Source of the DNA: a virus
DNA: 64,000 bases
Virus record (IMG/VR): IMGVR_UViG_3300007735_000795
Coordinates: 34,767-98,766 of that record
Direction: 5' to 3' (one strand)
This document shows positions 1,004 through 60,201 of this stretch, piece after piece. Position 1 is the first letter of the stretch. The number at the start of each line of letters is the position of its first letter. Under the pieces are notes generated by a model. That model saw nothing but the letters and a program-made list of their open reading frames with translations. It was not told the origin of the DNA and made no database searches. Both the position numbers and the translations under genes were made by a program.

Positions 1004-1007
1004 ATTT

Positions 1008-1389: not shown

Positions 1390-1559
1390 TGCTCACCTCC
1401 TTCATTTGATTGAATTAAAAAGAAAATCAAACATAAAATAGTTATACACCAACGATGCAACTCAATATCTTCCTTGTATTTGAATTGAGACGCACTATAT
1501 ATACCAATAGTCATTGCTGATACGTAACTTAGAATTTTGAATATTATTTGTTTACTCAT
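1386..1559 (-). CDS. Small membrane protein
   Basis: 57 aa beginning MSKQIIFKIL. There are two hydrophobic segments, about residues 5-21 and 38-50 (WCITILCLIFFLIQ), with a charged loop between, suggesting a two-pass inner-membrane protein. ATG follows GGAGGTGAGCA, and the gene itself ends in the same string, giving the C-terminus GGEQ. Function unknown. Confidence 0.6.
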   Translation of the reverse strand: MSKQIIFKILSYVSAMTIGIYSASQFKYKEDIELHRWCITILCLIFFLIQSNEGGEQ

Positions 1560-1813
1560 TGCTCACCTCCTTTGATTTTATCTCTCATCCATTTAGCACC
1601 TTGTACAAAACATCTTCTATAATTTTGCACATCTATTGAAAGACCTATATGTTTTTCTTTGGCAAACTTTTCTATCTCTTCATCTGAGATTTCAGGAATA
1701 ATCGGTTTTTCCGATTTTTCTGGTACATGGTCAAGAAAAGTATTGGAGACTTTGGTGTCACTGCTTGTTATGGTTTCCGCGTGTTCATAGCGGCTGAATT
1801 CTTTGTTATTCAT
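1556..1813 (-). CDS. Small phage protein with 'GAKWMRDK' tail
   Basis: 85 aa from ATG 1813 (MNNKEFSRYEHAE). A longer start at 1828 is possible, but 1813 directly overlaps the preceding stop (TAATG) and has GGAG nearby. The C-terminal half (ISDEEIEKFAKE...YRRCFVQGAKWMRDKI) resembles a recurring short phage domain ending in a 'F..GAKW.R' helix. It ends in GGEQ because the 3' end serves as RBS for the next gene. Function unknown. Confidence 0.6.
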   Translation of the reverse strand: MNNKEFSRYEHAETITSSDTKVSNTFLDHVPEKSEKPIIPEISDEEIEKFAKEKHIGLSIDVQNYRRCFVQGAKWMRDKIKGGEQ

Positions 1814-1923
1814 TATCTTGTTCTCCAAATATTTAAAATTATTTTAAATCTGAAAAAAGGAGAGTCTTTAAATACCTCTGACTTATCAAAAAGGATATTA
1901 AGAGTTCTTCTTATTTTACTCAT
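1813..1923 (-). CDS. Very small basic protein
   Basis: 36 aa, MSKIRRTLNIL..., basic and aromatic, with no recognisable domain. ATG 1923 is preceded by GGAAGTGAGCA, a one-base variant of the RBS string used by its neighbours, and the stop overlaps the next ATG. The context makes it plausible; the small size keeps confidence modest. Confidence 0.4.
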   Translation of the reverse strand: MSKIRRTLNILFDKSEVFKDSPFFRFKIILNIWRTR

Positions 1924-2099
1924 TGCTCACTTCCTTTAATTTCAGTAAATGTTGCTTTTGCCTTGAGGATTCCGTACTTACCCCCAATAATTTCTCTTTG
2001 GTACCTACCGCTAAGAATGTCGTTTTTCAATTCAGCAATTTCTTGCTCTCCCTTTTCATCAACGGTAATAACAAGTTTGATTTCGTACACCTTATTCAT
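1920..2099 (-). CDS. Small hypothetical protein
   Basis: 59 aa (MNKVYEIKLVITVDEKGEQ). It reads as two beta strands, a helix and a strand, a compact alpha/beta micro-domain. ATG 2099 follows GGAGGTGAGCA and the stop overlaps the next ATG. No family recognised. Confidence 0.6.
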   Translation of the reverse strand: MNKVYEIKLVITVDEKGEQEIAELKNDILSGRYQREIIGGKYGILKAKATFTEIKGSEQ

Positions 2100-2317
2100 T
2101 GCTCACCTCCTTTGTATGTTAGAATCAAATACTCAGCAGTAAGTCCTGTGGCTCTGCTTTTTTCCACGATTTCAATAATCTGCTCACGCTCCATTGCTTT
2201 CGCTTGTTCAAATAGCTTCTCAACATTATTCAAATAGCTATTTTTATCTAATGGATTAAAATCAATTCCTTTTTTTAGCTGCTCTTGCAACCATTCTACT
2301 GCTGTTTGTTTTTTCAT
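2096..2317 (-). CDS. Small 'KQTA/MEREQII' family protein, copy 2
   Basis: 73 aa, MKKQTAVEWLQEQL..., paralogous to 1008-1223: same N-terminal KQTA motif, same AMEREQIIEI centre and a C-terminal TAEYLILTY followed by KGGEQ. Helix-rich and soluble. The stop overlaps the next ATG and the start overlaps the preceding stop (2314), so translation is coupled on both sides. Function unknown. Confidence 0.7.
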   Translation of the reverse strand: MKKQTAVEWLQEQLKKGIDFNPLDKNSYLNNVEKLFEQAKAMEREQIIEIVEKSRATGLTAEYLILTYKGGEQ

Positions 2318-2577
2318 AGGTCTCCTCTATTGATTTTATAATTATAACCTTTAGTTTCTAAACACTTATTGATCCTATCAACAAAATGCCATTCCGGTTC
2401 TGTATCATGTACCTCTGGGTGTACTGATGCTACTTGAGCAATTTGCTCTGCTACTAATTGTTTTAATTCTTTTTCAGAAACAAATTTGTCTCCAAAAATA
2501 ACATCCTTAATGTTTTGGTAAGCATGAGTACACGCCTCATTACCTTCTTCTGTGAACATTTCAAATTCTACTATCAT
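2314..2577 (-). CDS. Small acidic protein
   Basis: 87 aa, acidic (MIVEFEMFTEEGNEACTHAY...). An N-terminal strand is followed by helices; WHFVDRINKCLETKGYNY near the C-terminus is amphipathic. It overlaps the downstream gene by 4 bases. No family recognised. Confidence 0.65.
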   Translation of the reverse strand: MIVEFEMFTEEGNEACTHAYQNIKDVIFGDKFVSEKELKQLVAEQIAQVASVHPEVHDTEPEWHFVDRINKCLETKGYNYKINRGDL

Positions 2578-2591
2578 AACCTTTATTTGTT

Positions 2592-2870
2592 TTATTTAGT
2601 TTTTGGTGAACATCCTAACATGAAACTAGTCAGGAATGCTTGATGTCTGCGTTTTGGAATTTTGTTTTCTTTTAACACATCTTTAACAATTTGCTCCATT
2701 ACTTCTTGCTCACATTCATATTCTAGAAATGGAATAATTTTTTGTCCAAACTCATTGAGCGGAGCATCTTCTAATAATTGATCAAAATCACCTTTAGGTG
2801 TACTCGCAGCAAATGCTCTACGATACATTTCAGTTAATACATTGTAGTCTTTTCGTTCTTGTTTTGTCAT
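2592..2870 (-). CDS. Small helical protein, first gene of the small-gene operon
   Basis: 92 aa, predominantly helical and charged (MTKQERKDYNVLTEMYRR...). The host-type promoter at 2888-2919 lies just upstream, its -7 box 18 bases from the ATG, so this gene probably opens the transcript that runs to at least 234. Function unknown; the early-operon position suggests a host-takeover role by inference only. Confidence 0.65.
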   Translation of the reverse strand: MTKQERKDYNVLTEMYRRAFAASTPKGDFDQLLEDAPLNEFGQKIIPFLEYECEQEVMEQIVKDVLKENKIPKRRHQAFLTSFMLGCSPKTK

Positions 2871-2887
2871 AACGTTTTAATTACAGT

Positions 2888-2919
2888 TAAATATACGACA
2901 AAAGACCTGGAAATCCAAG
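2888..2919 (-). promoter_or_regulatory. Bacteroidota-type promoter
   Basis: Minus strand CTTG, 20 bases, TATATTTA preceded by GTCG. The -33 CTTG is one base off TTTG. The -33 box and spacer lie inside the hairpin at 2899-2926. Confidence 0.6.
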
Positions 2920-2926
2920 TCTTTTG
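2899..2926 (-). terminator. Hairpin between operons, overlapping promoter
   Basis: Stem CAAAAGAC/GTCTTTTG (2899-2906 with 2919-2926) continues as TGG/CCA around an AAAT loop after one mismatch. It follows the stop of the small lipoprotein gene (2947). There is no separate U tail beyond the stem, so it is a candidate terminator only; it shares bases with the next promoter. Confidence 0.4.
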
Positions 2927-2946
2927 CGCAAGAAATTGTAGTTTTT

Positions 2947-3084
2947 TTATTTTGACCAGCCGCAGCCACCATTTTGATGAACATTTGTTCTAGAAATGCT
3001 TCCTGGTCTATACCATGCTGGTTTTTGGGCTACACATGAATAAAACAAAATTGAAATTAAAATAAGTTTAAGTGCTGTTTTCAT
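2947..3084 (-). CDS. Small lipoprotein
   Basis: 45 aa. MKTALKLILISILFYSC is a short signal peptide ending in a cysteine at residue 17, consistent with a lipobox (FYSC is not ideal). The mature part is short and contains GGCGW near the end. ATG 3084 overlaps the stop of the phosphoesterase gene. It may be an envelope protein made during infection; function unknown. Confidence 0.55.
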   Translation of the reverse strand: MKTALKLILISILFYSCVAQKPAWYRPGSISRTNVHQNGGCGWSK

Positions 3085-3806
3085 AATTTATTAATTTTTA
3101 TTTGTTTGTTTTCGTATACTAAATATTGTGGTTGGTTGTCTAATACATCAATAAAGTAATAACGTCCACCAGTTGCTTTACCTTTAGTATCAATTTCATT
3201 TACACTAGTATGACCAACTACTTGAATGTATTGTTTTTTCATTGGGTGTCGTTTTAACACTTTCATTAGACTTCTAGGACGAATCCAAATCGGTGTTTGA
3301 AATGTATCATCACCATAAGGATCACTATGTCCATATCCATTATCTGCAAATTTGAATTTATGTGGTTGAAAATACCATAAGTCATTTATAAATTCAACCA
3401 CGTCTTGTCCATCCCATCCACAATTTTTTAACCATTCAGGACTAACACCAGCATGACTAAATAACAAATCATCATACTGATAAGTCATTTGTAAATGGTG
3501 TCTGTTTGTTTCTAGTATGTTACCAATTTCCAAATAAAGACTATGTTGGAATCCACTATAACGTTCATTACAAATATTCATATAATGAAAGTCATGATTA
3601 CCAATTAGCATTATCACTTCACATTGTGGGTTTTCTAATTTCCAACGTACAATGTTTTTGAAGTTATGGATTTGGTCTATACCTGGAATGTCAAAACTAT
3701 CAAAGTAGTCTCCTACAAATACAACAGTATTTGGTTGTTCTTTTTCTAGAATTTGTTCCCAAACATTACGACCATGAATGTCTCCTATTGCTACTAACTT
3801 ATGCAT
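3081..3806 (-). CDS. Calcineurin-like metallophosphoesterase
   Basis: 241 aa. The metal-binding motifs occur in the expected order: GDIHGR (8-13), GDYFDS (32-37), GNHD (69-72), SHAGVS (117-122) and a C-terminal GHTS near 196. This is the layout of the PPP/diadenosine-tetraphosphatase-like branch of the calcineurin superfamily, which also includes lambda phosphatase. Substrate cannot be told: protein phosphatase, Ap4A hydrolase or 2',3'-cyclic phosphate enzyme are all possible. It overlaps the upstream gene by 8 bases. All catalytic residues look intact. Confidence 0.85.
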   Translation of the reverse strand: MHKLVAIGDIHGRNVWEQILEKEQPNTVVFVGDYFDSFDIPGIDQIHNFKNIVRWKLENPQCEVIMLIGNHDFHYMNICNERYSGFQHSLYLEIGNILETNRHHLQMTYQYDDLLFSHAGVSPEWLKNCGWDGQDVVEFINDLWYFQPHKFKFADNGYGHSDPYGDDTFQTPIWIRPRSLMKVLKRHPMKKQYIQVVGHTSVNEIDTKGKATGGRYYFIDVLDNQPQYLVYENKQIKINKL

Positions 3807-4365
3807 AATACCATCTGTTATTATTATACTCTGCTACTGAATTGTATTCAGCCATTTCACTATAAAGTGATTTTACTGTTTGATGAATTTCGTTTAATGG
3901 TTTATTAGTTGCTAATTGTTCACCTAACAAATAAGCAAATAAATTATTTGATTCCGTTACTTGTATTTGATTTGCTTTTACTCTACAGTAACGTGCTTCA
4001 CCAGTTTCACTGATAAACATACCTGAGTATAAACCTTTCAATTTATGATAATTTACAAATCGATCAGCATTACACCACAAGTACAATACATTGTCTTTTT
4101 TTCTTAATGCTTCAACACATCCATCTCCTATAACATAAGATGAACTAAGCATACCTGGTGTATTAAATTCAAACTGTCCTGCTGTAAACAAACCATTTGG
4201 CGAACCATGTCCCATAAGTAAAATACGATCATGCATTCCTATTAGTTGGATGATGGATTGTTTATCTGTTCCACCAGTAATAACTGTTTTATTAGGAATG
4301 TCTTTGTAGATTCGTTTTAAGAAATCTGTTGTTCTGTCTTTTGGATGAATTACCAGTGTTGTCAT
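3799..4365 (-). CDS. Caspase/CHAT-like candidate with His-Cys pair
   Basis: 188 aa from ATG 4365 (MTTLVIHPKD). The frame stays open to 4395, but the -7 box of the upstream promoter sits at 4381-4388, so a start there could not be transcribed from it. The core has strand-GHGSPNG (His 53) and, 45 residues later, a hydrophobic strand ending in LWCNADRF (Cys 98). This His-then-Cys spacing after two core strands recalls clan CD (caspase/CHAT/C25) peptidases. I recall similar small proteins in Bacteroidota genomes. Peptidase activity is inference. Confidence 0.5.
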   Translation of the reverse strand: MTTLVIHPKDRTTDFLKRIYKDIPNKTVITGGTDKQSIIQLIGMHDRILLMGHGSPNGLFTAGQFEFNTPGMLSSSYVIGDGCVEALRKKDNVLYLWCNADRFVNYHKLKGLYSGMFISETGEARYCRVKANQIQVTESNNLFAYLLGEQLATNKPLNEIHQTVKSLYSEMAEYNSVAEYNNNRWYYA

Positions 4366-6657: not shown

Positions 6658-7191
6658 ATTTACTACCATTAAAGTGTCCCCAAAGTGTGAACCAGTGTCT
6701 GGTTTTATCCAAAAGTCTAAATAGTTATGTTTCACTGCATTTTTAGCATACTTATTCATGACTGGTTTACCTGTGTTGTATGCTCCAGCGGCTTTACCCC
6801 AATCCTTATAACGTTTATACCATTCCTGTAGCATTTTCATAGAAATTTCTACATTTAATTCTATACTGTCCCTTAACATTGATTTTGGTACTTTGAAACC
6901 AGCATAGTAAGAAGCATATTGAGGCATAATTTGCATTGCTCCTAATGCTCCAGCACTTGACTTTTGTTTATGGTTATAATTTGTGTGATGTGGGCCTAAG
7001 TATCCTGTTTCTATACGAGCAATGTTAAAAGCAACGTGTATAGGAATGTCGTATAATGAGGCATAAGTTGTAATTGATTTGTATAGTCGTTGAGCAGGTG
7101 TTTGTTGTACGGGAACTTCAATTCTGTTTTTGGCGGTGATAATAATTATTAAAATTAGACAAGTGACAAGAAATAATAATAACTTTTTCAT
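6637..7191 (-). CDS. Lytic transglycosylase-like (SLT) muramidase
   Basis: 184 aa. An N-terminal hydrophobic segment (4-20) could be a signal anchor. The SLT-domain motifs follow: ARIETGY with catalytic Glu 61, GALGAMQIMP (81-90) and AAGAYNTG (about 134-141). These are the three conserved blocks of family 1 lytic transglycosylases, which cleave the MurNAc-GlcNAc bond. With the L,D-transpeptidase-like gene it gives this phage two wall enzymes; this one could act in lysis or in entry. A weak -7-like box lies just upstream, next to the terminator at 7218-7237. Confidence 0.8.
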   Translation of the reverse strand: MKKLLLFLVTCLILIIIITAKNRIEVPVQQTPAQRLYKSITTYASLYDIPIHVAFNIARIETGYLGPHHTNYNHKQKSSAGALGAMQIMPQYASYYAGFKVPKSMLRDSIELNVEISMKMLQEWYKRYKDWGKAAGAYNTGKPVMNKYAKNAVKHNYLDFWIKPDTGSHFGDTLMVVNFDNKSK

Positions 7192-7217
7192 GGTTTTTAA
7201 TTTTCCATTAATATAAT

Positions 7218-7237
7218 AAAAAAAGGCCCGAAGGCCT
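7218..7237 (-). terminator. Rho-independent terminator
   Basis: Stem AGGCC/GGCCT (7224-7228 with 7233-7237), loop CGAA, followed on the minus strand by seven U (complement of 7218-7224). It sits five bases after the stop of the poly-proline-tailed gene at 7242. Confidence 0.8.
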
Positions 7238-7241
7238 AGTT

Positions 7242-7520
7242 TTATTTATGTAGAGGGGGGGGGGGGGGAATTGCTGATGAAAACACGGATGGATTTGGGT
7301 TATAAGGAATAATTTTATCATTTGTTATTTTAAATTCATTCTTAAACTTCCCTGCATTTACAAATGATTCTTTCCAAGCATTAAATACTGCTTCATTATT
7401 TATCAGTATATATTTATTCTGAACGTCTTCAAAGGTTATTTTAGTTATATCTTTAATTACATTTTCATTTTCAGTTAAATGTTCACGTCTCCATTTGTAT
7501 GTGCTAAAATTGTCTTTCAT
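7242..7520 (-). CDS. Unknown protein with poly-proline tail encoded by a C14 tract
   Basis: 92 aa. A charged helical protein (MKDNFSTYKWRREHLTENENV) ends in AIPPPPPLHK. The proline run is encoded by 14 consecutive C (G at 7255-7268 on the plus strand), a striking homopolymer in an AT-rich genome. A one-base slip would replace the last residues and move the stop. A terminator follows at once. The late-like motif ATATTTATAATAA precedes the ATG. Function unknown. Confidence 0.6.
   Translation of the reverse strand: MKDNFSTYKWRREHLTENENVIKDITKITFEDVQNKYILINNEAVFNAWKESFVNAGKFKNEFKITNDKIIPYNPNPSVFSSAIPPPPPLHK
7255..7268. repeat. G14 homopolymer tract
   Basis: Fourteen G on the plus strand inside the 3' end of 7242-7520. 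It is either a hypermutable tract altering that protein's C-terminus or a sequencing/assembly length error. Confidence 0.85.
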
Positions 7521-7530
7521 AATTGTTTAT

Positions 7531-7546
7531 TTATTATAAATATATG
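7531..7546 (-). promoter_or_regulatory. Possible late-type promoter motif
   Basis: Minus strand CATATATTTATAATAA, 11 bases upstream of ATG 7520, shared almost exactly with sites before 41842, 42237 and 46014. No TTTG at -33. Confidence 0.35.
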
Positions 7547-7568
7547 AAAATAAATTAAATTATCCAAA

Positions 7569-7748
7569 TTAAATTAAACCAGTTTTTAACCATTTATATG
7601 CACAAACCAAAGCATCAGCACGGTTCATAATTAATTCATACCTGGACACCAGTTTTTGAAATTCAACCAGTTTATTACGGGAATGTGCTTCCCACAACAG
7701 TTTTTCTGCTTCAATTTCGTAATTGTAGTTATGTTTAATTTTAATCAT
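7569..7748 (-). CDS. Small helical protein
   Basis: 59 aa (MIKIKHNYNYEIEAEKLLWEAHSR...). Amphipathic helices throughout, with a WKAH-type middle and a YKWLKTGLI end. ATG 7748 has a strong AAAGGAGGTGCT ribosome-binding site encoded by the end of the upstream gene, whose stop overlaps this start. Function unknown. Confidence 0.6.
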   Translation of the reverse strand: MIKIKHNYNYEIEAEKLLWEAHSRNKLVEFQKLVSRYELIMNRADALVCAYKWLKTGLI

Positions 7749-7911
7749 AGCACCTCCTTTTTGGTTTTTTCCAAATTGAAGGTTTAGGACGAGGATTAGC
7801 TGTAACCCAAGTTGTTTTTTTAAGTCTTTTTTTGTCTGCTACTGTGATGCCTTTATACGGCACACAAGACGGTATCAGCAGTAACATAACCATTACTACT
7901 AATTTTTTCAT
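7741..7911 (-). CDS. Small lipoprotein
   Basis: 56 aa. MKKLVVMVMLLLIPSC is a lipoprotein signal peptide with the lipobox LIPSC-like sequence (Cys 16). The mature part is strongly basic and proline-rich (KRLKKTTW, RPKPSIWKKPKRRC). It could be an o-spanin-like or entry-exclusion lipoprotein; neither is shown. Translation is coupled to the next gene. Confidence 0.55.
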   Translation of the reverse strand: MKKLVVMVMLLLIPSCVPYKGITVADKKRLKKTTWVTANPRPKPSIWKKPKRRCYD

Positions 7912-7923
7912 TTTAAAGTGTTG

Positions 7924-8589
7924 TTACTGGTTCTGCTTAATTAAATTAGCAACTGATTCACCATTTAACAATAAATGCTCTTTAAATTCATCTGTAAAGC
8001 AGCATCCATTTTCTTCTTTAGATTTAATAAATTCTTTAGGTACATCACTAAATACCCAGTCAACTACTAATATTCCTATTAAATTACCATTTGGTGTTCC
8101 AAATTTAGAACTGCCCCTGTCATAAATTGGAATAGCAGCTGATGCTTGGGTGCTTGTTTTTCTGAGTAATGCCTTAGTGGTTATGTCTTCTATTTTTTCT
8201 ATGTCATTATAGAAAAATTTATTTTCAATTGTAGACTTGATAAGTGAAGTATAGTGACTTACAAAGAAATTTATCATGTTGTTTGATAGTGGTTCTAAAC
8301 CATCAGATGTTCTTTCGTAAGTAACAGATGCTTTCTGCATTGGAGAGTTAGTATAAAACGTTCCACCATTGTGAAACTGAATTAAGTATACTCTGTCTGC
8401 TTCATATTCGTTTTTAATTTCCTCAACTGTAAGATGAATGATTTCATCTTTATTAATTTGAGTCATTAATTTTTTTCTAGAACTGGATTGGTGTTTTTCG
8501 TCTAACCATTTCTTAAAATACCCCGCCGTTATTAGTGTAACTATTATTGACGTGACTGAAGTAATCACAGTTATAATAATACTTTCCAT
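7924..8589 (-). CDS. Membrane-anchored GAF-like sensor candidate
   Basis: 221 aa. An N-terminal membrane segment (about 3-25) is followed by a short helix and a domain with VYLIQFHNGGTFYTNS, a long helix, then AAIPIYDRGSS...NGNLIGILVVDWVF. The pattern of a strand pair, helix and second strand pair fits a GAF-type sensor. FHNGG is a motif I recall from bacterial GAF-like proteins. It is immediately followed in the genome by a SpoIIE phosphatase gene (8652-9548), a classic input/output pairing. Confidence 0.45.
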   Translation of the reverse strand: MESIIITVITSVTSIIVTLITAGYFKKWLDEKHQSSSRKKLMTQINKDEIIHLTVEEIKNEYEADRVYLIQFHNGGTFYTNSPMQKASVTYERTSDGLEPLSNNMINFFVSHYTSLIKSTIENKFFYNDIEKIEDITTKALLRKTSTQASAAIPIYDRGSSKFGTPNGNLIGILVVDWVFSDVPKEFIKSKEENGCCFTDEFKEHLLLNGESVANLIKQNQ

Positions 8590-8651
8590 TTATTCCTTCT
8601 CTTGTTTTTGGTTTACAAGTATAAATATGTTCAACTGAAGGAAAAGTCCTA

Positions 8652-9548
8652 TTAGAATTTTATTCCTATAACAGTAATGTCATCTGTTTGTTCAAATCCG
8701 TGTTTCCATTTATTAATTTCAAATTCTATTTTTTTATACTGTTCAAGTATAGGTTCATAGTGAATTGATTGTAATAATTCATAGAACTGTTTTGTAGTAA
8801 ATTTTTTATCATTTTCACCTCCAAACTGGTCTACATACCCATCTGTATACAAATACAATGTATCATCCTCTTCATATTCAATTTTGGTTTGAGTAAATGT
8901 TTTTTCACCTACACCTCCAATTCCAAATCGATTACCTTTTAATTCATGGATTTGGTCTTTTTTAAATAAAACTGATTTGTGTTTTGCTCCTGCAAAGTGT
9001 AATTGTTTATTTTGTTTATCAATTTTAATTATAGCCATGTCCATACCGTCTTGTATGGATTGGTTTATTCTATTTTGTTTTAGAGTTGTTTTTACCAGTC
9101 TATCCATTTCAAATAGTATTTGAGGCAAATCATATATTTTATTCTCAACCACAATTTGATTTAAAAAACTATTCCCCAGCATAGTCATAAATGCTCCTGG
9201 TATTCCATGTCCTGTACAGTCTGCACAAACAATAATGTAATTGTGTTCATTTATTTTGTGAAACCAAAAAAAGTCTCCACCAACAATGTCTTTTGGTTTA
9301 TAAAAGAAAAATGAAAGAGGAAGATATCTTTTGATAAATTCCTCTCCTGGTAGTAATACTTTTTGAATTTCGTGAGCGTACTTTAGACTTAAAACCAATT
9401 CATGTTTTCGGAATTCAAGTACTTTATTTTTATTTTCTAATTCAGTTTTTATTTTTGAAAGTTGAGTAACAACAGATTGTGTTTTCTTTTTGTATGAAAA
9501 AGACACAATAAAAAGAATTAGTAAAAACAAACATATTATTCCAACCAT
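8652..9548 (-). CDS. SpoIIE/RsbU-type PP2C serine phosphatase, membrane anchored
   Basis: 298 aa. One N-terminal TM (1-18), a coiled coil (about 28-62), then a PP2C-SpoIIE domain: GGDFFW (90-95), DCTGHGIPGAF (110-120), LYTDGYVDQFGG (about 232-243) and a final DDITVIGIKF. The metal-binding aspartates of the three motifs are present. In bacteria these phosphatases control anti-anti-sigma factors, and in Bacteroidota they often follow sensor modules. The gene abuts a lipoprotein gene (stop and start share a base). A phage copy could alter host stress signalling; that is inference. Confidence 0.85.
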   Translation of the reverse strand: MVGIICLFLLILFIVSFSYKKKTQSVVTQLSKIKTELENKNKVLEFRKHELVLSLKYAHEIQKVLLPGEEFIKRYLPLSFFFYKPKDIVGGDFFWFHKINEHNYIIVCADCTGHGIPGAFMTMLGNSFLNQIVVENKIYDLPQILFEMDRLVKTTLKQNRINQSIQDGMDMAIIKIDKQNKQLHFAGAKHKSVLFKKDQIHELKGNRFGIGGVGEKTFTQTKIEYEEDDTLYLYTDGYVDQFGGENDKKFTTKQFYELLQSIHYEPILEQYKKIEFEINKWKHGFEQTDDITVIGIKF

Positions 9549-36351: not shown

Positions 36352-36834
36352 TTAAAAATAATCATCCTGATCTTTCTGGGTTGGGTCTGTATTGTGACCA
36401 AACTCATCATAATCATAGTCATCCTCTTCATCACTATCATTATCTTCTCTACCAAACAATACCTTTAATTCATCTAATACTTCATCTACAATATTTTTTA
36501 AATCAGGATTATCAGAAGCTATTTGCTCTAGTTGAGGCATTACCTCTTCATCAAAAGTATCTTCTGGGTAGTCTATAAGTTTATTTATTGTGTCATCTAT
36601 TTCTTTAAGAGCAGATGCTAGTTCTTTTACTGTTCCTACTTTAGGAGGTGTTTTAAGTTTGTTTAAATATAATGCTACTTTTACTCTGTCGGCAGGATCA
36701 TAAACATTATTAGCATCCTGAGTGTTTATGTATAATTTTAAAATATGTTGGTATGGATTGTCAGCTAATTGTTTAAATTGGCTTTCAGTAATCAAACCAG
36801 CCAATTTTTGCATTTTAAGGAACTCTTTATTCAT
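36352..36834 (-). CDS. T4-like phage protein, possibly structural
   Basis: 160 aa. MNKEFLKMQKLAGLITESQFKQL is a leader I know from proteins of T4-like phages of Bacteroidota. Helices follow, and a strongly acidic tail (EDNDSDEEDDYDYDEFG). It is preceded by a variant of the late-like motif (ATATGTATAATAAAAC at 36847-36861) and followed by a terminator. Function unknown. Confidence 0.55.
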   Translation of the reverse strand: MNKEFLKMQKLAGLITESQFKQLADNPYQHILKLYINTQDANNVYDPADRVKVALYLNKLKTPPKVGTVKELASALKEIDDTINKLIDYPEDTFDEEVMPQLEQIASDNPDLKNIVDEVLDELKVLFGREDNDSDEEDDYDYDEFGHNTDPTQKDQDDYF

Positions 36835-36872: not shown

Positions 36873-37127
36873 CTAATAGTCTCCGTACAAATTAAATTTC
36901 TTAGGTGGAGGTGCCTGTACTTCAACTGTTTTTTCTACTAATGAATACAATTCACCTTTTCTAGGGGACAATTTAAAGTCACAAACGTTTTGTACTTTTT
37001 GATAATATGCTTCTAAAGTGTCAGTTAATGAATTGTAAACAGTATCATCATTCAACAGTGACCACCTGTCACCAGGTGGTACACGTTGAGCGATTAGTTC
37101 TTCTATTAGTTTAATTTCAGTTGACAT
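36873..37127 (-). CDS. Small hypothetical protein
   Basis: 84 aa ([22 protein letters not shown]...). Helical, with a proline-rich APPPKKFNLYGDY end. It overlaps the stop of groL by one base. Function unknown. Confidence 0.6.
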   Translation of the reverse strand: MSTEIKLIEELIAQRVPPGDRWSLLNDDTVYNSLTDTLEAYYQKVQNVCDFKLSPRKGELYSLVEKTVEVQAPPPKKFNLYGDY

Positions 37128-38743
37128 TAAAACATTCCTCCCATTCCACTAAGGTCTTCTTGTTTAGTTTCTTCAGGTTTATCTACAACAGTACATTCAG
37201 TTAATAGAATTGTTCCTGCTACTGAAGCGGCATTTTCAATTGCTGTACGAGTTACTTTAGTTGGATCAATGATTCCAGCTTGTTTCATATCAACAAACTT
37301 TTGTGTTTCGAGATTATAACCTCTCCAGTTATCACGAACAACAAACAAGTTATTGATTACTTGATATGATTCCATTTCTTCATAACCAGCATTAGTGAGA
37401 ATTTTTATAAATGGTGAAGCACATGCTTTCCAAACAATGTTACCACCTACAGTGTCTCGGTTTGTAATTGATTCACGTGCATATAGTAAAGCAGATCCAC
37501 CACCAGGTACAATACCTTCTTCAATTGCGGCTTTAGTTGCTTGCAAGGCGTCATCCACGCGGTCTTTCTTTTCTTTGACCTCGGTTTCAGTATTACCACC
37601 GACATGAATTATTGCTACTCCTCCGACGAACTTCGCAAGCCTTTCTTGTAATTTTTCTTGTTCGAAAGGGGTCTTTGCTTTTTCGATTTGTTGTTGAAGT
37701 TCTTCAATACGTGTTTGTATTCTCTCAGATTGTCCTTTTCCATCAACTATTGTTGTTTGGTCTTTAGTAACTGTTATTAAACGGGCTTCGCCAAACCACT
37801 TCCAATCGAATTTGTCTAGCTTCATGCCCTTATCAGTACTAAATACCTCACCTCCTGTCAAAGTCGCAATGTCTTCTAAAAGTAGTTTTCTGCGATCACC
37901 AAAGTCAGGTGCTTTTACAGCACACACCTTAATAGTACCCCTCATTTTATTTACAATAAGTGTAGCAAGTGCTTCACCATCAACGTCTTCTCCTATAATA
38001 AGAAGCGGTTTGTTCTGATTAGACACTGCTTCTAATACTGGGAGTAATTCTTTAATAGTAGTAAAACGTTTGTCAGCAATGAGAATCAATGGATTCTCAA
38101 GGGTACAAGTCATTGTGTTGTTATCAGTAACAAAGTAATGTGATTTGTATCCTCTGTCAAATTGCATACCTTCTACTGTTTCAAGGTATGTTTCACCTGA
38201 TTTTGATTCTTCAATGTGTACTACACCTTCACGTCCTACTTTTTGCATTGCTGTAGCAATCAATTCTCCAATTTCAGGGTCATTATTTGCTGAAATGGTG
38301 GCTACTTGTTTAAGTTGGTCTTCAGAACTAATGTCTTGAGAAATGTTTTTACGTAATTCTCTAACAACTTCTTTAACAGCAGAATCAATTTCACGTTTGA
38401 TTTTAACTGCATTAATACCATTATTTAAATGTGTTAATCCATTTTTAACCATTTCTTGGGCCAACAATGTAGAAGTAGTTGTACCGTCACCTGCTCCATC
38501 AGCTGTTTTAATAGCTGCTTGTTTAACAAGTTGTGCTCCTAATTCTTCAATTGGGTCTTCAAGTGAAATATTCCTTGCTACTGTTACCCCATCTTTTGTA
38601 GATTGAGGGTAATCATTGTTTTTTGAAATTACAACATTACGACCATTAGGGCCTAATGTTGATGTAACGGCATTTGCTAATTTATCAATACCACTTACTA
38701 GTTTTTTTCTTGCTTCAGGTCCGAATTCGATAATTTTACTCAT
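37127..38743 (-). CDS. groL: Chaperonin GroEL
   Basis: 538 aa. Clear Gro[33 protein letters not shown], the apical-domain [39 protein letters not shown], and a GMGGMF tail. The family's ATP-binding DGTTT is intact. Together with the downstream GroES it gives a full phage chaperonin. T4 instead supplies only gp31, a GroES substitute. An apical-domain stretch ([18 protein letters not shown]) has unusual residues, which may reflect adaptation to phage substrates. Confidence 0.97.
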
Positions 38744-38749
38744 ATTTTG

Positions 38750-39043
38750 TTATTCTGTTATAATTGCTAATACTTGGTTTTCTGGGCATACCCAGTATTC
38801 TTGGCCATCAAATTCAATTTTGTTTGGTCCCATAGCTGGAAGCATTACTTCCATACCTACTCTTAGACTTGTGTCTATCCAAACACCTGTTGCTGAATGA
38901 TAGCCTTCACCTATTGATACAATTGTTCCAATAAGTGCTTTTTCTTTACCCAAATCGGGTACTATGATTGAGCCGTATAGTGACTCTTCTGATTCGCGGG
39001 GTTTAACTATAACCGCGTTAAATGTTGCTTGTAACTTTTTCAT
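38750..39043 (-). CDS. groS: Co-chaperonin GroES
   Basis: 97 aa. A GroES fold with FNAVIVKPRESEESLYGSIIVPDLGKEKALIGTIVSIGEG and EVMLPAMGPNKIEFDGQEYWVC...ENQVLAII. The mobile loop (ESEESLYGSIIVPD) has the hydrophobic III-type anchor seen in GroES. Six bases from groL, clearly co-transcribed. Confidence 0.9.
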   Translation of the reverse strand: MKKLQATFNAVIVKPRESEESLYGSIIVPDLGKEKALIGTIVSIGEGYHSATGVWIDTSLRVGMEVMLPAMGPNKIEFDGQEYWVCPENQVLAIITE

Positions 39044-40206: not shown

Positions 40207-41115
40207 TTAAAAACTAAAAAATTTAGTCACATTTGCATTTAACGGCGGAAATTCCCATTTTAAATCACTATAAAGTTCCTTTAATTTGTTTAATAGTAAT
40301 GACTCAAAAATTTCATCTATATCAATATACATTTTAACAAATTTTTCTATCTCATCAGGTACTTTAGCATTTGGTAAACCAATTGTATCTAGTTTGTACA
40401 TGTTTGGTTTTAGGTTAATAATAAAGATTTTATCACCTTCAATTATAGATTCGTATTTTTTATCTAGTTTTTTAAACTTTAATAAGTCATTATAACGAAC
40501 AGCTGCTTTAGTGTTTGAAGGTGCTTTTAGTCTGAAGTTGCTAAACATTTCTCCTGCTCTAGCAGGTACAATGTATGCTTTTATTTGTTTTACTCCAGTA
40601 GGTTTACCTAATTGTCTAATGTCTGTTGTTTTAAGTGATTTGTAAAATTCAATGATTGAATTGTCAATTTCAGTTTTAGTTTTACCAAACAATATGTTTT
40701 TGATAAGTTGTTCTCCAAACGATTTAAACAACTTATTCATGTTAGACTTCATTAGTTCAAGTCCTTTCATATCCAATTCATCAACAGCAACACCTTCTTT
40801 ATTAGTAATATACATAGCATACCTTCGTTTACCAGTAACAAGAATACCCTTAGCAATTACTTCTTGTTTTAACTGAAAGTAGTGTTTTTTAGGGTCAATG
40901 TTAAATAATTCTTTACAAAGAGTATTCAGGTGAGTATTTGATTCGTTTTGAATTTGATTTGCTAATTTTAATATGATTTCATTTTTATTGGTATCATTGA
41001 TTTCAATACCTTGAGATTTCATATGTTCTAGTACAGGACGTAATCCTATAAAAAGACTATCCGTATCTGATATTTTAATATGATTTGTTTCCTTTGTTTC
41101 TGTTTCCGATTTCAT
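40207..41115 (-). CDS. Family-B DNA polymerase, C-terminal half (split gene)
   Basis: 302 aa. After a short lead (MKSETETKETNHIKI) comes polymerase motif C, SDTDSLFI (Asp 17 and Asp 19), then GKRRYAM (95-101), the KKRY-type motif, and thumb-domain sequence. The exonuclease, motif A and motif B are missing here but are present in 42272-44020. So this is gp43B of a split polymerase. The ATG 41115 overlaps the 3' end of the HNH endonuclease gene by 41 bases. It presumably assembles non-covalently with the N-terminal half. Confidence 0.9.
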   Translation of the reverse strand: MKSETETKETNHIKISDTDSLFIGLRPVLEHMKSQGIEINDTNKNEIILKLANQIQNESNTHLNTLCKELFNIDPKKHYFQLKQEVIAKGILVTGKRRYAMYITNKEGVAVDELDMKGLELMKSNMNKLFKSFGEQLIKNILFGKTKTEIDNSIIEFYKSLKTTDIRQLGKPTGVKQIKAYIVPARAGEMFSNFRLKAPSNTKAAVRYNDLLKFKKLDKKYESIIEGDKIFIINLKPNMYKLDTIGLPNAKVPDEIEKFVKMYIDIDEIFESLLLNKLKELYSDLKWEFPPLNANVTKFFSF

Positions 41116-41842
41116 TTATATAACCGTGTTTTTCTGCTATTTCTGTTGTTTTAAATAATGGTTGTAGATTTGTATAGTGAAAGCATTGTTTTTGTTCTTC
41201 TAGTTTAGTTAAGTCAAAGTTTGAACAAGCTTTAATATGATCTATTTCCCATACTGTTCCATGGTTTTCCCAAGTCATTTCAGGTTTAAATTGTTGTTCT
41301 AAATATAATTTAAGTTCTTCAATAGAACAATTTATTAATTCAAGTACAGATTTTATTTTATATCCTCTAATTACAGCACTATAAAATCTATTTCTTAAAG
41401 TAACTTCAATTTTGTATTGAATATTGTTATTATATCTATCATTCTGGTATGGTCTATCTCTTTCAGCTATGTAGCCATATTTTGAATTATATTCTTTTGT
41501 ACATTCTTTGCACTTGTTTTGTAAACCATGAGGTGCTTTTTTATCAGGATAAAATTCTGTTTTGTTTTTTATATTAAAACATGTGTTGCATTTTTTTATA
41601 TTTTTGTATTTTTCCTCTAAAAGTAACCATTTATATTTGTATTGTTGGAATGTTTCTTTTAATGTTTTACCTTTACGTTTTTCTCTAAACCATAATGCCC
41701 AACATCCATTACAGTAACCGCTTGATTGTAGTTGTTCAAATTCTTCTACACAACCAGTACATCTTTTTCTTAAACCATCTTCAGAATATTTTATTAAATC
41801 TATGTTATGTTTATATTGTTTTCTATTTTTTGTTTTACTCAT
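41075..41842 (-). CDS. HNH homing-type endonuclease inserted in the polymerase
   Basis: 255 aa. A four-cysteine zinc module KKCNTCFNIKNKTEFYPDKK...LQNKCKECTKEY leads to an HNH nuclease core WEIDHIKACSNFDLTKLEEQKQCFHYTNLQPLF near the C-terminus (His-Asn pattern). It lies between the two DNA polymerase halves, the typical place for a freestanding homing endonuclease. It is paralogous to 51436-52095. A late-like motif and a terminator precede it. Confidence 0.85.
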   Translation of the reverse strand: MSKTKNRKQYKHNIDLIKYSEDGLRKRCTGCVEEFEQLQSSGYCNGCWALWFREKRKGKTLKETFQQYKYKWLLLEEKYKNIKKCNTCFNIKNKTEFYPDKKAPHGLQNKCKECTKEYNSKYGYIAERDRPYQNDRYNNNIQYKIEVTLRNRFYSAVIRGYKIKSVLELINCSIEELKLYLEQQFKPEMTWENHGTVWEIDHIKACSNFDLTKLEEQKQCFHYTNLQPLFKTTEIAEKHGYINEIGNRNKGNKSY

Positions 41843-41853
41843 AATGTATTATT

Positions 41854-41867
41854 TTATTATAAATATA
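41854..41867 (-). promoter_or_regulatory. Possible late-type promoter motif
   Basis: Minus strand TATATTTATAATAA, 11 bases upstream of ATG 41842 of the HNH gene. No TTTG at -33. Confidence 0.35.
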
Positions 41868-41890
41868 CATAGAGTCTGTCTTCTCAATAT

Positions 41891-41919
41891 AAAAAAGAAA
41901 GCTTAGTTTCCCAAGCTTT
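41891..41919 (-). terminator. Rho-independent terminator inside the split-polymerase insert
   Basis: Stem AAAGCTT/AAGCTTT (41898-41904 with 41913-41919), 8-base loop, followed on the minus strand by a U-rich run (complement of 41891-41900). It separates the 95-aa gene from the HNH gene. Confidence 0.7.
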
Positions 41920-41949
41920 ACTTTAAATAGTTTGTTTTAATTAGTTTAA

Positions 41950-42237
41950 CTATGAATTTCCACCTTGGTATTCACCATCCAAGAACCAAAGCACTTCTCC
42001 TTCCTCCATACCATTAACAGCTATATCTAAAGAACCCTTATTAGGATTTAACGTATCTTCTTGATTTTCAATACTGTAAGAAGTATTTGTTTTTTCTAAA
42101 AACTTAATGAATTTAGAAGCTTGTAGTTTCCTTGCTGCGTCTACTATTTCGCTATGAGTTAGTGCCTCATTTAATACTTTAGAATTAGTAGTCATTTTGT
42201 TTTCTACTAAATATTTTTTTAAATCAAAATTATCCAT
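41950..42237 (-). CDS. Small phage protein within the split-polymerase insert
   Basis: 95 aa. MDNFDLKKYLVENKM is a leader I know from small proteins of T4-like cyanophages and relatives. A helical part (SEIVDAARKLQASKFIKFL) and an acidic C-terminus (EEGEVLWFLDGEYQ) follow. It has a late-like motif upstream and a terminator downstream, so it is an independent unit. Function unknown. Confidence 0.6.
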   Translation of the reverse strand: MDNFDLKKYLVENKMTTNSKVLNEALTHSEIVDAARKLQASKFIKFLEKTNTSYSIENQEDTLNPNKGSLDIAVNGMEEGEVLWFLDGEYQGGNS

Positions 42238-42249
42238 GTTATTATAGTT

Positions 42250-42265
42250 TTATTATAAATATATG
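42250..42265 (-). promoter_or_regulatory. Possible late-type promoter motif
   Basis: Minus strand CATATATTTATAATAA, 13 bases upstream of ATG 42237; identical to the site at 7531-7546. Confidence 0.35.
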
Positions 42266-42271
42266 TTTTTT

Positions 42272-44020
42272 TTAAAGGTTAAATTTCTTTATTAATTCTT
42301 CTTTACTTAACTGTAGATATTCATTATTTATTTCATTATTTACAAAATCAATAGTATGTCTTGTGAGGGACTGTCCTGTATTAGTAATAGCAGCACTACA
42401 AATTAAATGCCCATCAGTATAACGCCATCCACTTTTAGCAAATGTACCATACATTGCGTTTTGTAGAATTTTAAATGCGTGTTGGAACAAATCATATAGT
42501 TTATAATTAGCCCAATCTTCTTCTTTACCAGCTTTTTTCTTAAGTGCCCTATAATGTTCTCGTTTATCAAACCAGCCTTCTAGAATTTTAGCAACAACAC
42601 TTTGTTCATCTGTTCTAAACATTGCCCCTGAAGCAGAAACTGTAAAGTTATTGTCTTCAATAATTTTAATTAGGTCTCCTAGTTTAATTTTTGCTTGGTT
42701 TAAACTATAATTCTTTTTATTTACTTTTTCAATTACAACTTCTTCGTTTGGGTCTCGTTCTTTAAGTTTTTCTAGACTATGATTTTGTTCATATGTTGGT
42801 CTATGATCAACTTTAATTCTACCTACTAATGTTTCAATACCTAAATTAAGTGATTTAATAATTGAAGGGTATAGTGAAGTAAAGTCTAAGTCAATTACGT
42901 CAAAGTATAAGCCAGGGATTGGTTCTAATAAATAACCACCAGCATATGTTTCCTTAAAGTTTTTAAGTGATGGGTTATGAGTAGTTGGTTTATTAGGTGA
43001 AATTATATTTTCTCGTTTTAGGTGTTTTAAAATAGCACCTTCATTCATAACTGTATTCCAATAAATTGATTCATAAGGAATGTTACAAATGTGAGAAATC
43101 ATAATTGTTAAGTCAATAAACTTAAGTTTAGCCTCTAATGCTTCAATGATTTCAACGTCTCGTAAGTTATAATCTATAAATTTATTTATGTCGTCTCTGA
43201 ATAATGTGTTTAAATTACCTTCATATTCAATTTTACCTAGGTTAACATATTTGGTTCCAATGTCTCCTAATTTATATGATGGTTCTTCCTTCATAATGTA
43301 TTTTTTATGAAGCAACATATAGTCCAAACAATTTATACCTCCAATAGTGATTTGATTTTCACCATTAAATTCTCTAGCATCTACCTTTCTAATTGGAGAC
43401 AAACGTTTAACTTCATCCTCACCTGCAATTTGTTTGATACGGTAATAAAGGTAAGGCATATCAAAGTAGTCTGAATTGTATCCTACTAGAATTGTAGGGT
43501 CTAATTCTTCAAATTTAGATAAAAATTTACCTATCAGTTCTATTTCGTTTCTACAAGGAATGATGTGTTTGTTATCTTGGTTAATTTCCTTAATTTGACC
43601 TGATGGGTCAACAACAAGACATATTTTTTGTTTTGTAGTCACATCTATAAGAGCAATAGATGTAAGAGGCATAGGTGCTTGTTGGACGTATCCTGGTGTT
43701 AAAGCACCTCCCATTTCAATTTCTATATCAATGTAAACAATGTTGTGCCATTCAGGGACAACATCGTCTTCTTTATAGTATAATTCTCGTAATATTAAAA
43801 GTGATTTGTCAATGTCTTTTTCTAACAAATCAGGATCATCTTTATCATACTTTTTAGTTGGAACAGCCCATCCACCTGTTAATACAGGTCTTGCTTTTTC
43901 ACTCCATTCATTGGTGCGTTTCCAAAATGTAGGTTGAAATTGAAACTGCATCCAACCTTGTTTGTCGTCTCGTAAGTAATAGGTATAATTACAACGGTCG
44001 TAGTATATTGCTTGGTACAT
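42272..44020 (-). CDS. Family-B DNA polymerase, N-terminal half (split gene)
   Basis: 582 aa. The 3'-5' exonuclease motifs are present: DIE (98-100), GYNSDYFDMPYL (180-191), YNLRD (284-288). Polymerase motif A is DFTSLYPSI (379-387) and motif B is KILQNAMYGTFAKSG (517-531). The frame ends with KEELIKKFNL, before motif C, which is found in the separate gene 40207-41115. T4 gp43 is about 900 aa, close to the sum. No intein splice motifs (terminal Cys start, HN end) are evident. It has promoter 44027-44058 upstream. Confidence 0.95.
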   Translation of the reverse strand: MYQAIYYDRCNYTYYLRDDKQGWMQFQFQPTFWKRTNEWSEKARPVLTGGWAVPTKKYDKDDPDLLEKDIDKSLLILRELYYKEDDVVPEWHNIVYIDIEIEMGGALTPGYVQQAPMPLTSIALIDVTTKQKICLVVDPSGQIKEINQDNKHIIPCRNEIELIGKFLSKFEELDPTILVGYNSDYFDMPYLYYRIKQIAGEDEVKRLSPIRKVDAREFNGENQITIGGINCLDYMLLHKKYIMKEEPSYKLGDIGTKYVNLGKIEYEGNLNTLFRDDINKFIDYNLRDVEIIEALEAKLKFIDLTIMISHICNIPYESIYWNTVMNEGAILKHLKRENIISPNKPTTHNPSLKNFKETYAGGYLLEPIPGLYFDVIDLDFTSLYPSIIKSLNLGIETLVGRIKVDHRPTYEQNHSLEKLKERDPNEEVVIEKVNKKNYSLNQAKIKLGDLIKIIEDNNFTVSASGAMFRTDEQSVVAKILEGWFDKREHYRALKKKAGKEEDWANYKLYDLFQHAFKILQNAMYGTFAKSGWRYTDGHLICSAAITNTGQSLTRHTIDFVNNEINNEYLQLSKEELIKKFNL

Positions 44021-44064: not shown

Positions 44065-46014
44065 TTAAACTGCTCCAAAAGAAGCAGTATACCATCCTCC
44101 ATCCCAAATATATAATTTATTAGTACTTGTATTAAAATACATTGAACCTGTTTTTGGGTTGGATGGGTTGACTGTATTTGTAGGTATCATGATTGAACCC
44201 CTACTACTACCATCTACATCAACAGTAAATCCATCTTTTTCGGTACCTAATGCTCCTCCTATTCCTACTACAAACAATGAAGTATCATTACCGTGTTCAT
44301 TAAATTTACCAACTACAGTTTGATACGAACCCGAAGCTATAGCATATCCTCCTAAAGCAGTTGAATAAGCGCCTTCTGTTTCTGAATATGTTCCTCCTGC
44401 AAATGAATAAATACCTTTAGCAACTGTATTTGCTCCTTGAGTATGTGAACCATTACCATATGCTAATGTGTTCTCCCCCTCAGCATGAGAATATGAGCCT
44501 GAAGCAATTGAATTATATCCTTCAGCGTGGGAAAAATCACCTCGAGCATCTGTGTCATTACCTTCAGCATGAGAACCGGTACCTCTAGTATATGTTCCCA
44601 AACCTTCAGCATGAGAAAAAGGACCTTCTGTTAGAGAACCTGAACCTTCAGCATGAGAATGTTGTCCTGAAGTCTGTGTGTCTTTACCTTCAGCATGTGA
44701 ATATCCACCTAAAGCCCATGTGTTATAACCTTCAGCATGAACATAAAAACCTGAAGCGGTTGTTTGAGAACCTTCAGCGTGTGAATATTGTCCTGAAGCA
44801 GTTGTTTGATAACCTTCAGCATGTGAGTATTGACCTAAAGCAATTGTTTGATAACCTTCAGCATGTGAATAAGAACCTGAAGCAACTGTTTGAGAACCTT
44901 CAGCATGTGAATATAAACCTAAGGATAAAGTTTGTTGTCCTTCTGCATGTGAATAAGAACCTGAAGCAACTGTTTGAGAACCTTCAGCGTGTGAATATTG
45001 ACCTGAAGACGTTGTTAAATAACCTTCTGCGTGAGACCATGAACCTGATGCTAATGTTTGATATCCTTCAGCATGTGAATAATCACCTAAGGATAAAGTT
45101 TGCCATCCTTCAGAATGAGAGCCTTGTCCTACAGCATCTGTTTGATAACCTTCAGCATGAGAAGAATTACCAGAGGATGTTGTTTGATAACCTTCAGTGT
45201 GTGAATAACCACCTAAAGCAAGTGTAGCTTGACCTTCAGTATGGGAATAATTACCTTGAGCTAATGTTTGATAACCTTCAGCATGAGCTGCTAAACCTAA
45301 AGCAGTTGTTTGCAATCCTTCGGCATGTGAAGAAATACCTGATGCTAATGATGATGAACCTTCTGCGTGTGAAGTAATACCAATTGAGTCGGTTGATCTG
45401 CCTTCAGCATGTGAATAAAGACCTGAAGCTGTTGTTTGAAAACCTTCAGCGTGAGAAGTAGAACCTGATGCTAATGTTTGGTATCCTTCTGCATGTGAAT
45501 AAGAACCTGAAGCAAATGAACCTGAACCTTCAGCATGGGATGCAAAACCATAAGCAGTAGTTTGAGAACCTTCAGCATGTGAATATGAACCGGATGCTAA
45601 TGCTTGATAACCTTCAGCATGAGAAGCAGATCCAATAGCGTCTGTTTCTCGTCCTTCTGAATGGGCATATAAACCTGAAGCTGTTGTTTGATAACCTTCA
45701 GCATGAGTAGAAGTAGTTTTAGCCCATGTTTGCCATCCTTCGGCGTGTGCTGTATAACCAGTTGCTTGTGAATCTCTACCTTGTGCGTGTGAATAATTAC
45801 CTGATGCTGTTACGTTGTCTCCTTGAGCAAATGTATATTCATTGAAAGCAGTAGCATTTACTCCAATCATTATAGAGCCACTAAATTTATTGCTACCTGA
45901 TAGGAAAGCATATGATTTAGAGACATGAAAAAAATTATTGTCTAATTGTTCATAACTAAGAGCAGAACCAGTAACTGTTCTAAATGTAAACGATCCTGAA
46001 TTTAAAAGAGGCAT
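44065..46014 (-). CDS. Repetitive fibre/adhesin-like protein with about 33 HxEG repeats
   Basis: 649 aa. From about residue 75 to 545 it consists of roughly 33 copies of a 14-residue unit with the core S-H-A-E-G-(YS)-Q-T and alternating ASG(S/L)Y. This is the YadA/Hep_Hag head repeat, which forms left-handed beta-roll stalks. The N-terminus (LLNSGSFTFRTVTGSALSYEQLDNNF) is typical of phage virion proteins, and the C-terminus (SMYFNTSTNKLYIWDGGW) is a common phage-fibre end. Likely a tail or head fibre for host binding. The 42-base DNA repeats could expand or contract by recombination. Confidence 0.8.
   Translation of the reverse strand: MPLLNSGSFTFRTVTGSALSYEQLDNNFFHVSKSYAFLSGSNKFSGSIMIGVNATAFNEYTFAQGDNVTASGNYSHAQGRDSQATGYTAHAEGWQTWAKTTSTHAEGYQTTASGLYAHSEGRETDAIGSASHAEGYQALASGSYSHAEGSQTTAYGFASHAEGSGSFASGSYSHAEGYQTLASGSTSHAEGFQTTASGLYSHAEGRSTDSIGITSHAEGSSSLASGISSHAEGLQTTALGLAAHAEGYQTLAQGNYSHTEGQATLALGGYSHTEGYQTTSSGNSSHAEGYQTDAVGQGSHSEGWQTLSLGDYSHAEGYQTLASGSWSHAEGYLTTSSGQYSHAEGSQTVASGSYSHAEGQQTLSLGLYSHAEGSQTVASGSYSHAEGYQTIALGQYSHAEGYQTTASGQYSHAEGSQTTASGFYVHAEGYNTWALGGYSHAEGKDTQTSGQHSHAEGSGSLTEGPFSHAEGLGTYTRGTGSHAEGNDTDARGDFSHAEGYNSIASGSYSHAEGENTLAYGNGSHTQGANTVAKGIYSFAGGTYSETEGAYSTALGGYAIASGSYQTVVGKFNEHGNDTSLFVVGIGGALGTEKDGFTVDVDGSSRGSIMIPTNTVNPSNPKTGSMYFNTSTNKLYIWDGGWYTASFGAV
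44150..45800. repeat. Tandem 42-base coding repeats
   Basis: Approximate extent of the imperfect 14-codon repeats in the fibre gene (span is my estimate). The core on the plus strand is ccttcagcatg. It also creates a long spurious open frame on the plus strand. Confidence 0.7.
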
Positions 46015-59670: not shown

Positions 59671-60201
59671 TTATTTTTTTACTAATATAAAACCATCTCT
59701 ATAAGTATCAAAACCAAAATTAGGAATTTGTTGAAGTTGTTTTGATATAAAGGCTTTATATAAATTTGATTTTTGAGAAATATCATCACTATCTATTTCC
59801 TTTGATGATCCTCTAATATATAATCCGTTAATGTCGTCTAAATAACCATCTTCATTTTTTAAAAAATCTTTTACAATATCTACTATAGTTGATAAGATAG
59901 TAAGTAATGTTTTTAAATCTGTTTTAGCAAATTGTTTTTCAACACCTTCTACATCATAACTTACATTATACACATCATCTAATTTTCGATACTTTGGTGG
60001 AAAATAATACTGTTGTTCAATGTCATCAAACATTGAAAATGCTACAGTTACTATTTTTTTACCTTTTTCTATCTTAATTGGAAATTCATATATAGTAGAA
60101 GAACGTTTTTTCCATTTTAAAGGAGAAATATTTGCTTCCCCGATTTCTTTTACAAGAATTTCCTGAATTAAGGGTACAAGTAATGTTTTATGAGATGCCA
60201 T
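59671..60201 (-). CDS. Hypothetical protein between helicase and nuclease genes
   Basis: 176 aa. A helical start (LLVPLIQEILVKEIG), then strands (SSTIYEFPIKIEKGKKIVTVAFSMFDD), helix KTLLTILSTIVDIVKDFLK, and a C-terminal strand FDTYRDGFILVKK. No recognised motif. Possibly part of the replication module by position. Confidence 0.55.
   Translation of the reverse strand: MASHKTLLVPLIQEILVKEIGEANISPLKWKKRSSTIYEFPIKIEKGKKIVTVAFSMFDDIEQQYYFPPKYRKLDDVYNVSYDVEGVEKQFAKTDLKTLLTILSTIVDIVKDFLKNEDGYLDDINGLYIRGSSKEIDSDDISQKSNLYKAFISKQLQQIPNFGFDTYRDGFILVKK

Follow-up and report, generated by a model that had tools for sequence, protein, structure and literature searches.

The DNA analyzed here (64,000 nucleotides, referred to below as the window) corresponds to positions 34,767 to 98,766 of the 98,766-bp IMG/VR virus record IMGVR_UViG_3300007735_000795, which belongs to a T4-type phage, and it encodes a gp43-type family B DNA polymerase in two genes that are separated by an insert. 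The genes lie on the minus strand in the following order: (i) PolB-N (42272..44020), the N-terminal half of 582 amino acids (aa), (ii) a 95-aa open reading frame (ORF; 41950..42237), (iii) a gene for a free-standing HNH / endonuclease VII-like nuclease of 255 aa (41075..41842), and (iv) PolB-C (40207..41115), the C-terminal half of 302 aa. On the same strand, a terminator-like hairpin with a T run (41898..41919) is located 3′ of the 95-aa gene, and the promoter-like motif TATTTATAATAA occurs both 12 nucleotides (nt) 5′ of the ATG of this gene (42250..42261) and 11 nt 5′ of the HNH ATG (41854..41865). Pfam gave no match for the HNH gene, which was assigned instead with PHROGs (phrog_1035, 1.5e-13) and has relatives at 13 viral loci. 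This composition of the insert had been proposed in a first-pass annotation of the sequence, and the coordinates, the hairpin and the phrog_1035 match confirm it.

Both halves were identified by Pfam and PHROGs as family B polymerase of the gp43 type, and the best solved structure for either of them, by sequence as well as by predicted fold (models of medium confidence), was that of RB69 gp43. The translation of PolB-N contains the 3′-5′ exonuclease motifs DIEIE, GYNSDYFD and YNLRD, the palm motif A (DLDFTSLYPSII), the fingers and motif B (KILQNAMYGTFAKSG), while PolB-C, which starts approximately 14 residues ahead of SDTDSLF, carries motif C (ISDTDS), GKRRYAM and the thumb; the break is thus situated between motifs B and C, as the first-pass annotation had stated. 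Along phrog_262, the full gp43-type polymerase of 856 positions, positions 37-566 are matched by PolB-N and 567-851 by PolB-C. These spans are complementary, and the two genes together therefore amount to essentially one complete polymerase, a view previously based on their combined length. PolB-N ends in a tail (codons 568-582, the YLQLSKEELIKKFNL region; 42275..42319) which is modelled as a helix at residues 573-579 (pLDDT, the predicted local distance difference test, of about 67-82). The other side of the break is overlapped for 41 nt by the HNH gene (41075..41115), so that the start codon and first ~11 residues of PolB-C come from the 3′ end of this gene in a different reading frame.

The record covers only part of a genome (relatives reach ~155-175 kb). 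PolB-N and PolB-C are the only PolB pieces in its 98,766 bp, in which no further PF00136 match was found, and a second PolB was not found in ten relatives either. Scans with each polymerase half identified 154 viral loci (designated L001 and so on), most of which contain an uninterrupted polymerase gene, while the break recurs at this site in a minority. Most of the close relatives (91-92% identity to the N half, e.g. L001 and L002) are intact, with one gene of ~861 aa; in L001 (861 aa) the N part is 91% identical and the junction reads NNKLNTELESDKQYICISDTDS. Since contigs obtained independently from other metagenomes carry the same-site split, a sequencing frameshift or mis-assembly is ruled out. 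Of the two objections that the first-pass annotation had raised against itself, an artifactual break is thus disposed of by these contigs, and a full-length polymerase elsewhere in the phage found no support in the search of the record.

Nei-Gojobori ratios of nonsynonymous to synonymous substitution (dN/dS) were 0.03-0.18 for the N half and 0.07-0.26 for the C half in all tested pairs, split or intact, and purifying selection acts on both halves. Together with the lack of a second polymerase in the ten relatives, this indicates that both halves are probably needed, and we infer that PolB-N and PolB-C are likely to form a two-chain enzyme. The incompleteness of the record (98.8 kb, compared with about 155-175 kb in relatives) would be compatible with a polymerase that is decaying or non-functional in a phage replicated by another enzyme; however, given the purifying selection on both halves, the integrity of all motifs and the ten relatives without a second PolB, we regard such decay as exceedingly unlikely.

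Contents of the break in related phages

At least 12 different contents were found at the break across the split relatives. The site may be occupied by (i) the HNH gene with the 95-aa gene, as in the window, (ii) a GIY-YIG nuclease gene, which carries NUMOD domains in L008, L010 and L054, is present in L153, is accompanied in L056 and L229 by small genes (one with an MDNFDLKKYL leader), and is represented in L154 by a GIY-YIG-like gene (by similarity; no Pfam match) next to two other genes, (iii) a 308-aa treble-clef, nuclease-like gene (L024), or (iv) other genes, namely three small genes without a nuclease (L003 and L065), a single gene of 172 aa (L011), of about 211-224 aa (L012) or of 161 aa (L073), two genes (L067), or 4.2 kb including a collagen-like fibre gene (L022). 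Several of the cargo genes at the split site carry short N-terminal leaders like that of the 95-aa protein, and the gene found in L011 has a homologue elsewhere in the genome of the window itself (window 59677-60201, 58%).

L240 is insert-free: its C half starts six bases after the stop codon of the N half. This is a single contig, in which a sequencing error at the one stop codon is possible; its tail and the head of its C half are of the split type. Just upstream of this polB lies an HNH gene (L240:4001-4400) related to that of the window, which ends in the sequence ..NEIGN.NKG.., as does the 3′ end of the window HNH gene that is read into PolB-C. The nuclease likewise overlaps the start of PolB-C in the nuclease-only inserts of L008, L010, L054 and L024. 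The HNH gene of the window sits at a conserved site (that of motif C) for which relatives with an empty site exist (the intact L001 and L002), as is typical of free-standing homing endonucleases.

These inserts bear on two ways in which a single chain could still be produced. The insert might be a group I intron with ORFs, removed from the RNA as in the Jug phages, JSE and gene 43B of phage 25; introns in gp43 genes and RNA-level splicing of split genes are documented (PMC2993671; PMC12363816). However, Rfam searches of the window and of the 3.8-kb locus gave no match (E<=5), and L008, L010 and L054 could not accommodate an intron core, because the ATG of the nuclease follows the PolB-N stop codon by only about 21 nt and the nuclease gene extends into PolB-C. 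With L240 insert-free as well, a ribozyme was rejected as an explanation for the break, and we consider an intron very unlikely. The chains could alternatively be joined after translation by a split intein, for which the fractured gene of phage MIJ3, with a split PolB intein and an HNH gene between the halves, provides a precedent (PMC6892783). This appears the least probable of all the explanations considered here, since the stretch of PolB-N without a counterpart in intact genes is only 15 aa long and PolB-C has only ~12 aa before motif C, mostly derived from the HNH 3′ end, which leaves no space for intein blocks on either half.

A different arrangement was observed in L288 (LR756508, 258500-268000), an uncultured 484-kb phage, in which the PolB parts (loci 864-3917 and 6923-8788) have several genes between them, of which some bear MKLKNLL-type leaders. 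One part has a long C-terminal extension and the other a long N-terminal one, and the whole looks like a split intein with cargo.

The flanks of the insert

The broken genes, with the exception of L153 and L154, have a common tail at the C terminus of the N half (..NNEYLQLSKEELIKKFNL in the window), which is missing from intact genes. Over most of their length, split and intact alleles do not form separate groups, and they are scattered on the trees of both halves. On the tree built from N-half DNA, 11 changes of the split label are required (10 forced by starred branches), a result also reached by 104 of 500 label shuffles; for the C half beyond nt 300 the label requires 12 (11 forced by starred branches), again without clustering relative to shuffles. 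In contrast, only 2 changes are needed in the tree of the 150 nt that directly follow the DTDS codons, where 13 of the 15 splits group together (11 of them on a starred branch), with L153 and L154 apart. As a control, sliding 150-nt windows gave 9-12 changes throughout, apart from the initial 225 nt of the C half, where the values were 3 and 5. The common N tail and C head may represent a putative docking interface between the chains.

Comparison of close split and intact alleles revealed identities of up to 97-98% outside a region of ~150-200 nt on either side of the insert. In the pair L008 (split) and L013 (intact), identity in the N half is 94-99% over most of its length and 79/72% in the last ~150 nt, while in the C half it is 62/71% in the first ~200 nt, then 89-97%, and 91-100% further downstream. 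Similar dips were found in L010/L014, L003/L007, L022/L038 and L024/L031, and at the junction the identity of L008/L013 and of the first three of these pairs falls to about 62-80%. The window itself is closest to the intact L002 over the N half and most of the C half, whereas the head of its C half is closest to the split L011 (89% over 141 columns). This split-type tract opens PolB-C (approximately 40940..41070), and the switch from L011-type to L002-type sequence occurs about 110-170 nt past the DTDS codons.

As judged from these alignments, the junction dips and the haplotype switch are a gene-conversion (homing) footprint around the insert, and the co-conversion of flanking sequence is a further property of free-standing homing endonucleases. 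The restriction of divergence to the flanks and the grouping of splits by their C heads argue for transfer of the insert as a cassette by gene conversion. In T4-like phages such tracts are known to be driven by homing nucleases (PMC2988022), and the window HNH nuclease would be the candidate driver of the tract described here.

The widely differing contents, with nucleases of different families, could also be explained by many independent insertions at one hotspot in different lineages, with neither a common split allele nor cassette transfer; L153 and L154, with their different tail and their position outside the split group in the C-head tree, fit such a history. In that case, however, the flanks should resemble those of the nearest intact relative, and they differ. 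Moreover, 13 split alleles have the tail and the haplotype after motif C in common and cluster in this part of the gene but not in the remainder. Independent insertion is therefore unlikely.

The 95-aa gene, its leader and the upstream motifs

The first ~24 residues of the 95-aa protein (42166..42237) form a modular leader (MDNFDLKKYLVENKMTTNSKVLNE, followed by A) which recurs at 76 viral loci on 48 body clusters (74 ORFs and 51 body clusters in a second count). Four leader families were distinguished, (a) MDNFDLKKYL.., (b) ..F.KMQKLAG.., (c) MKKSELRQIIKEE.. and (d) MIKLxDLLxE, present on 51, 15, 9 and 11 body clusters, respectively. A hydrophobic-x-E motif is found in 15/15 members of family b (background, 59/147), the only family for which the count is a fair one, the search patterns for a, c and d already including this motif. 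Short N-terminal leader families also occur on many unrelated small phage proteins (L155-L230; window 36352-36834), which likely constitute a capsid-cargo repertoire.

The internal proteins of T4 have capsid-targeting propeptides of 10-20 residues, which the prohead protease removes by cleavage after a glutamate (PMC5694885; PMC3012670). They share with the proteins described here a conserved short leader (10-25 residues) ending in a glutamate motif on otherwise unrelated, diverse small proteins, and differ in that the leader sequences belong to other families and that packaging and cleavage are putative in the present case. A T4-type prohead protease (Peptidase_S77) is encoded in 7 of the 9 relatives. 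Because of this protease and the resemblance of a leader found on ~50 unrelated proteins to T4 capsid-targeting sequences, the 95-aa protein is probably best read as a late capsid cargo protein.

Exact copies of TATTTATAATAA in the record number 7 on the gene strand and 0 on the other strand. This motif precedes fibre and cargo genes (gene starts 46014, 42237 and 41842, the last two being those of the inserted genes), whereas a different motif, TTATTATATTA, precedes replication and metabolism genes, i.e. PolB-N and those for a clamp loader, GTP cyclohydrolase and the ribonucleotide reductase small subunit (gene starts including 36298, 40168, 44020 and 47622). Both are candidate promoter signals, and suggestive only, because the gene strand is not enriched over the other strand once mismatches are allowed; the late-like motif noted by the first-pass annotation stands with this qualification. 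Terminator-like hairpins are more frequent in the region than expected by shuffling (4 found, 0.9 expected). The late-type motif and the terminator would be consistent with a capsid-cargo gene of the late class that resides within an early gene. A third upstream motif, TCGTATATTT, was noticed before small genes.

The surroundings of the split polymerase include adjacent phage genes for GroEL and GroES (538 and 97 aa, respectively; 37127-39043, minus strand), located a few genes further downstream than polB-C, and a gene for a YadA-head-like repeat protein immediately upstream of polB-N (44065-46014, minus strand). In otherwise near-identical polB pairs, the DNA upstream of polB is non-homologous.

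Proposed origin and spread of the split allele

The explanation that we favor, and consider probable, is that of a two-chain gp43-type polymerase encoded by an old split allele which has spread by break-driven conversion while the occupants of the break turned over. In this enzyme, the exonuclease as well as motifs A and B would reside on PolB-N, with motif C and the thumb on PolB-C, and the chains would assemble non-covalently. The break between motifs B and C would mark the old allele, with its helical tail on the N chain and its distinct segment after motif C. This allele would enter intact polymerase genes of related phages by gene conversion following a break made, presumably, by a nuclease, and the insert would be copied with about 150-200 nt per side. 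The occupants would be exchanged over time, being HNH, GIY-YIG or other nucleases, or ordinary phage genes riding along; those of the window would be the HNH gene and a late-type gene whose 95-aa product probably enters the capsid by means of its N-terminal leader.

Several points weigh against this explanation. The assembly of the two chains and the cutting of intact polB by the HNH nuclease are both inferred, and the model of PolB-N is of medium confidence only (pLDDT 69.5). Ordinary homologous recombination could move the cassette as well, and several split alleles carry no nuclease. The capsid route of the 95-aa protein is likewise a putative one, and a PF03420 search of the window's own fragmentary record found no prohead protease.

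The first-pass annotation had considered the insert less like a simple homing event on account of its extra small gene. The locus is indeed more than a single nuclease insertion, but a small extra gene is compatible with homing, because the site swaps cargo, nucleases or nothing and its flanks bear the marks of conversion.

Split gp43 genes with or without a homing nuclease are already known: in Aeromonas phages 44RR and 25 gp43 is encoded by two cistrons, and the break is occupied by a homing nuclease gene in phage 25, whereas 44RR has nothing but untranslated sequence there (Petrov, Ratnayaka and Karam 2010, reviewed in PMC2988022). When purified, the two chains of phage 25 stay together and show activity (reviewed in PMC2988022). 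The first-pass annotation was right in pointing to this kind of split, to which the window polymerase belongs, but the position differs. In 44RR the break lies in the fingers before motif B, near window residue 471 (gp43A has 498 aa, and motifs B and C are both on gp43B), whereas in the window it follows residue 582, and identity of the two breaks was therefore rejected. Unlike 44RR and 25, the present site has no detected group I intron, and it shows many contents and a conversion footprint. In the split nrdA of Aeh1, a nuclease gene (mobE) likewise interrupts an essential gene whose parts are kept as separate polypeptides (reviewed in PMC2988022), although the gene is another one and a single occupant has been described. 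DNA polymerase genes split by endonucleases have also been reported for Jug phages (PMC12363816). MIJ3 resembles the window in having an HNH gene between PolB halves and differs from it in its intein parts. HEG-islands (PMC10448857) similarly combine homing genes and cargo near essential genes at the edges of exchange, while here the broken essential gene itself houses the cargo, several times with no nuclease present. The new elements are the common split haplotype, its movement as a short cassette, and contents that are exchangeable and often lack a nuclease.

These observations turn a one-off split phage polymerase into a population-level natural experiment, in which the contents of a single break in an essential gene range from three types of nuclease through plain cargo to, in one instance, no insert at all. 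The varied contents at one break make it possible to ask directly whether breaks made by selfish nucleases outlast the nuclease and become useful landing sites, and the many natural two-chain polymerases with matched intact sisters are useful for studies of enzyme assembly. A tentative further possibility is that selection maintains the broken polymerase as a stable docking site, whose co-adapted N tail and C head would be insensitive to homing and would need no resident nuclease, and which would ferry swappable, capsid-delivered cargo between phages on short conversion tracts. If this is true, these tracts lie in one of the most conserved replication genes of phages.

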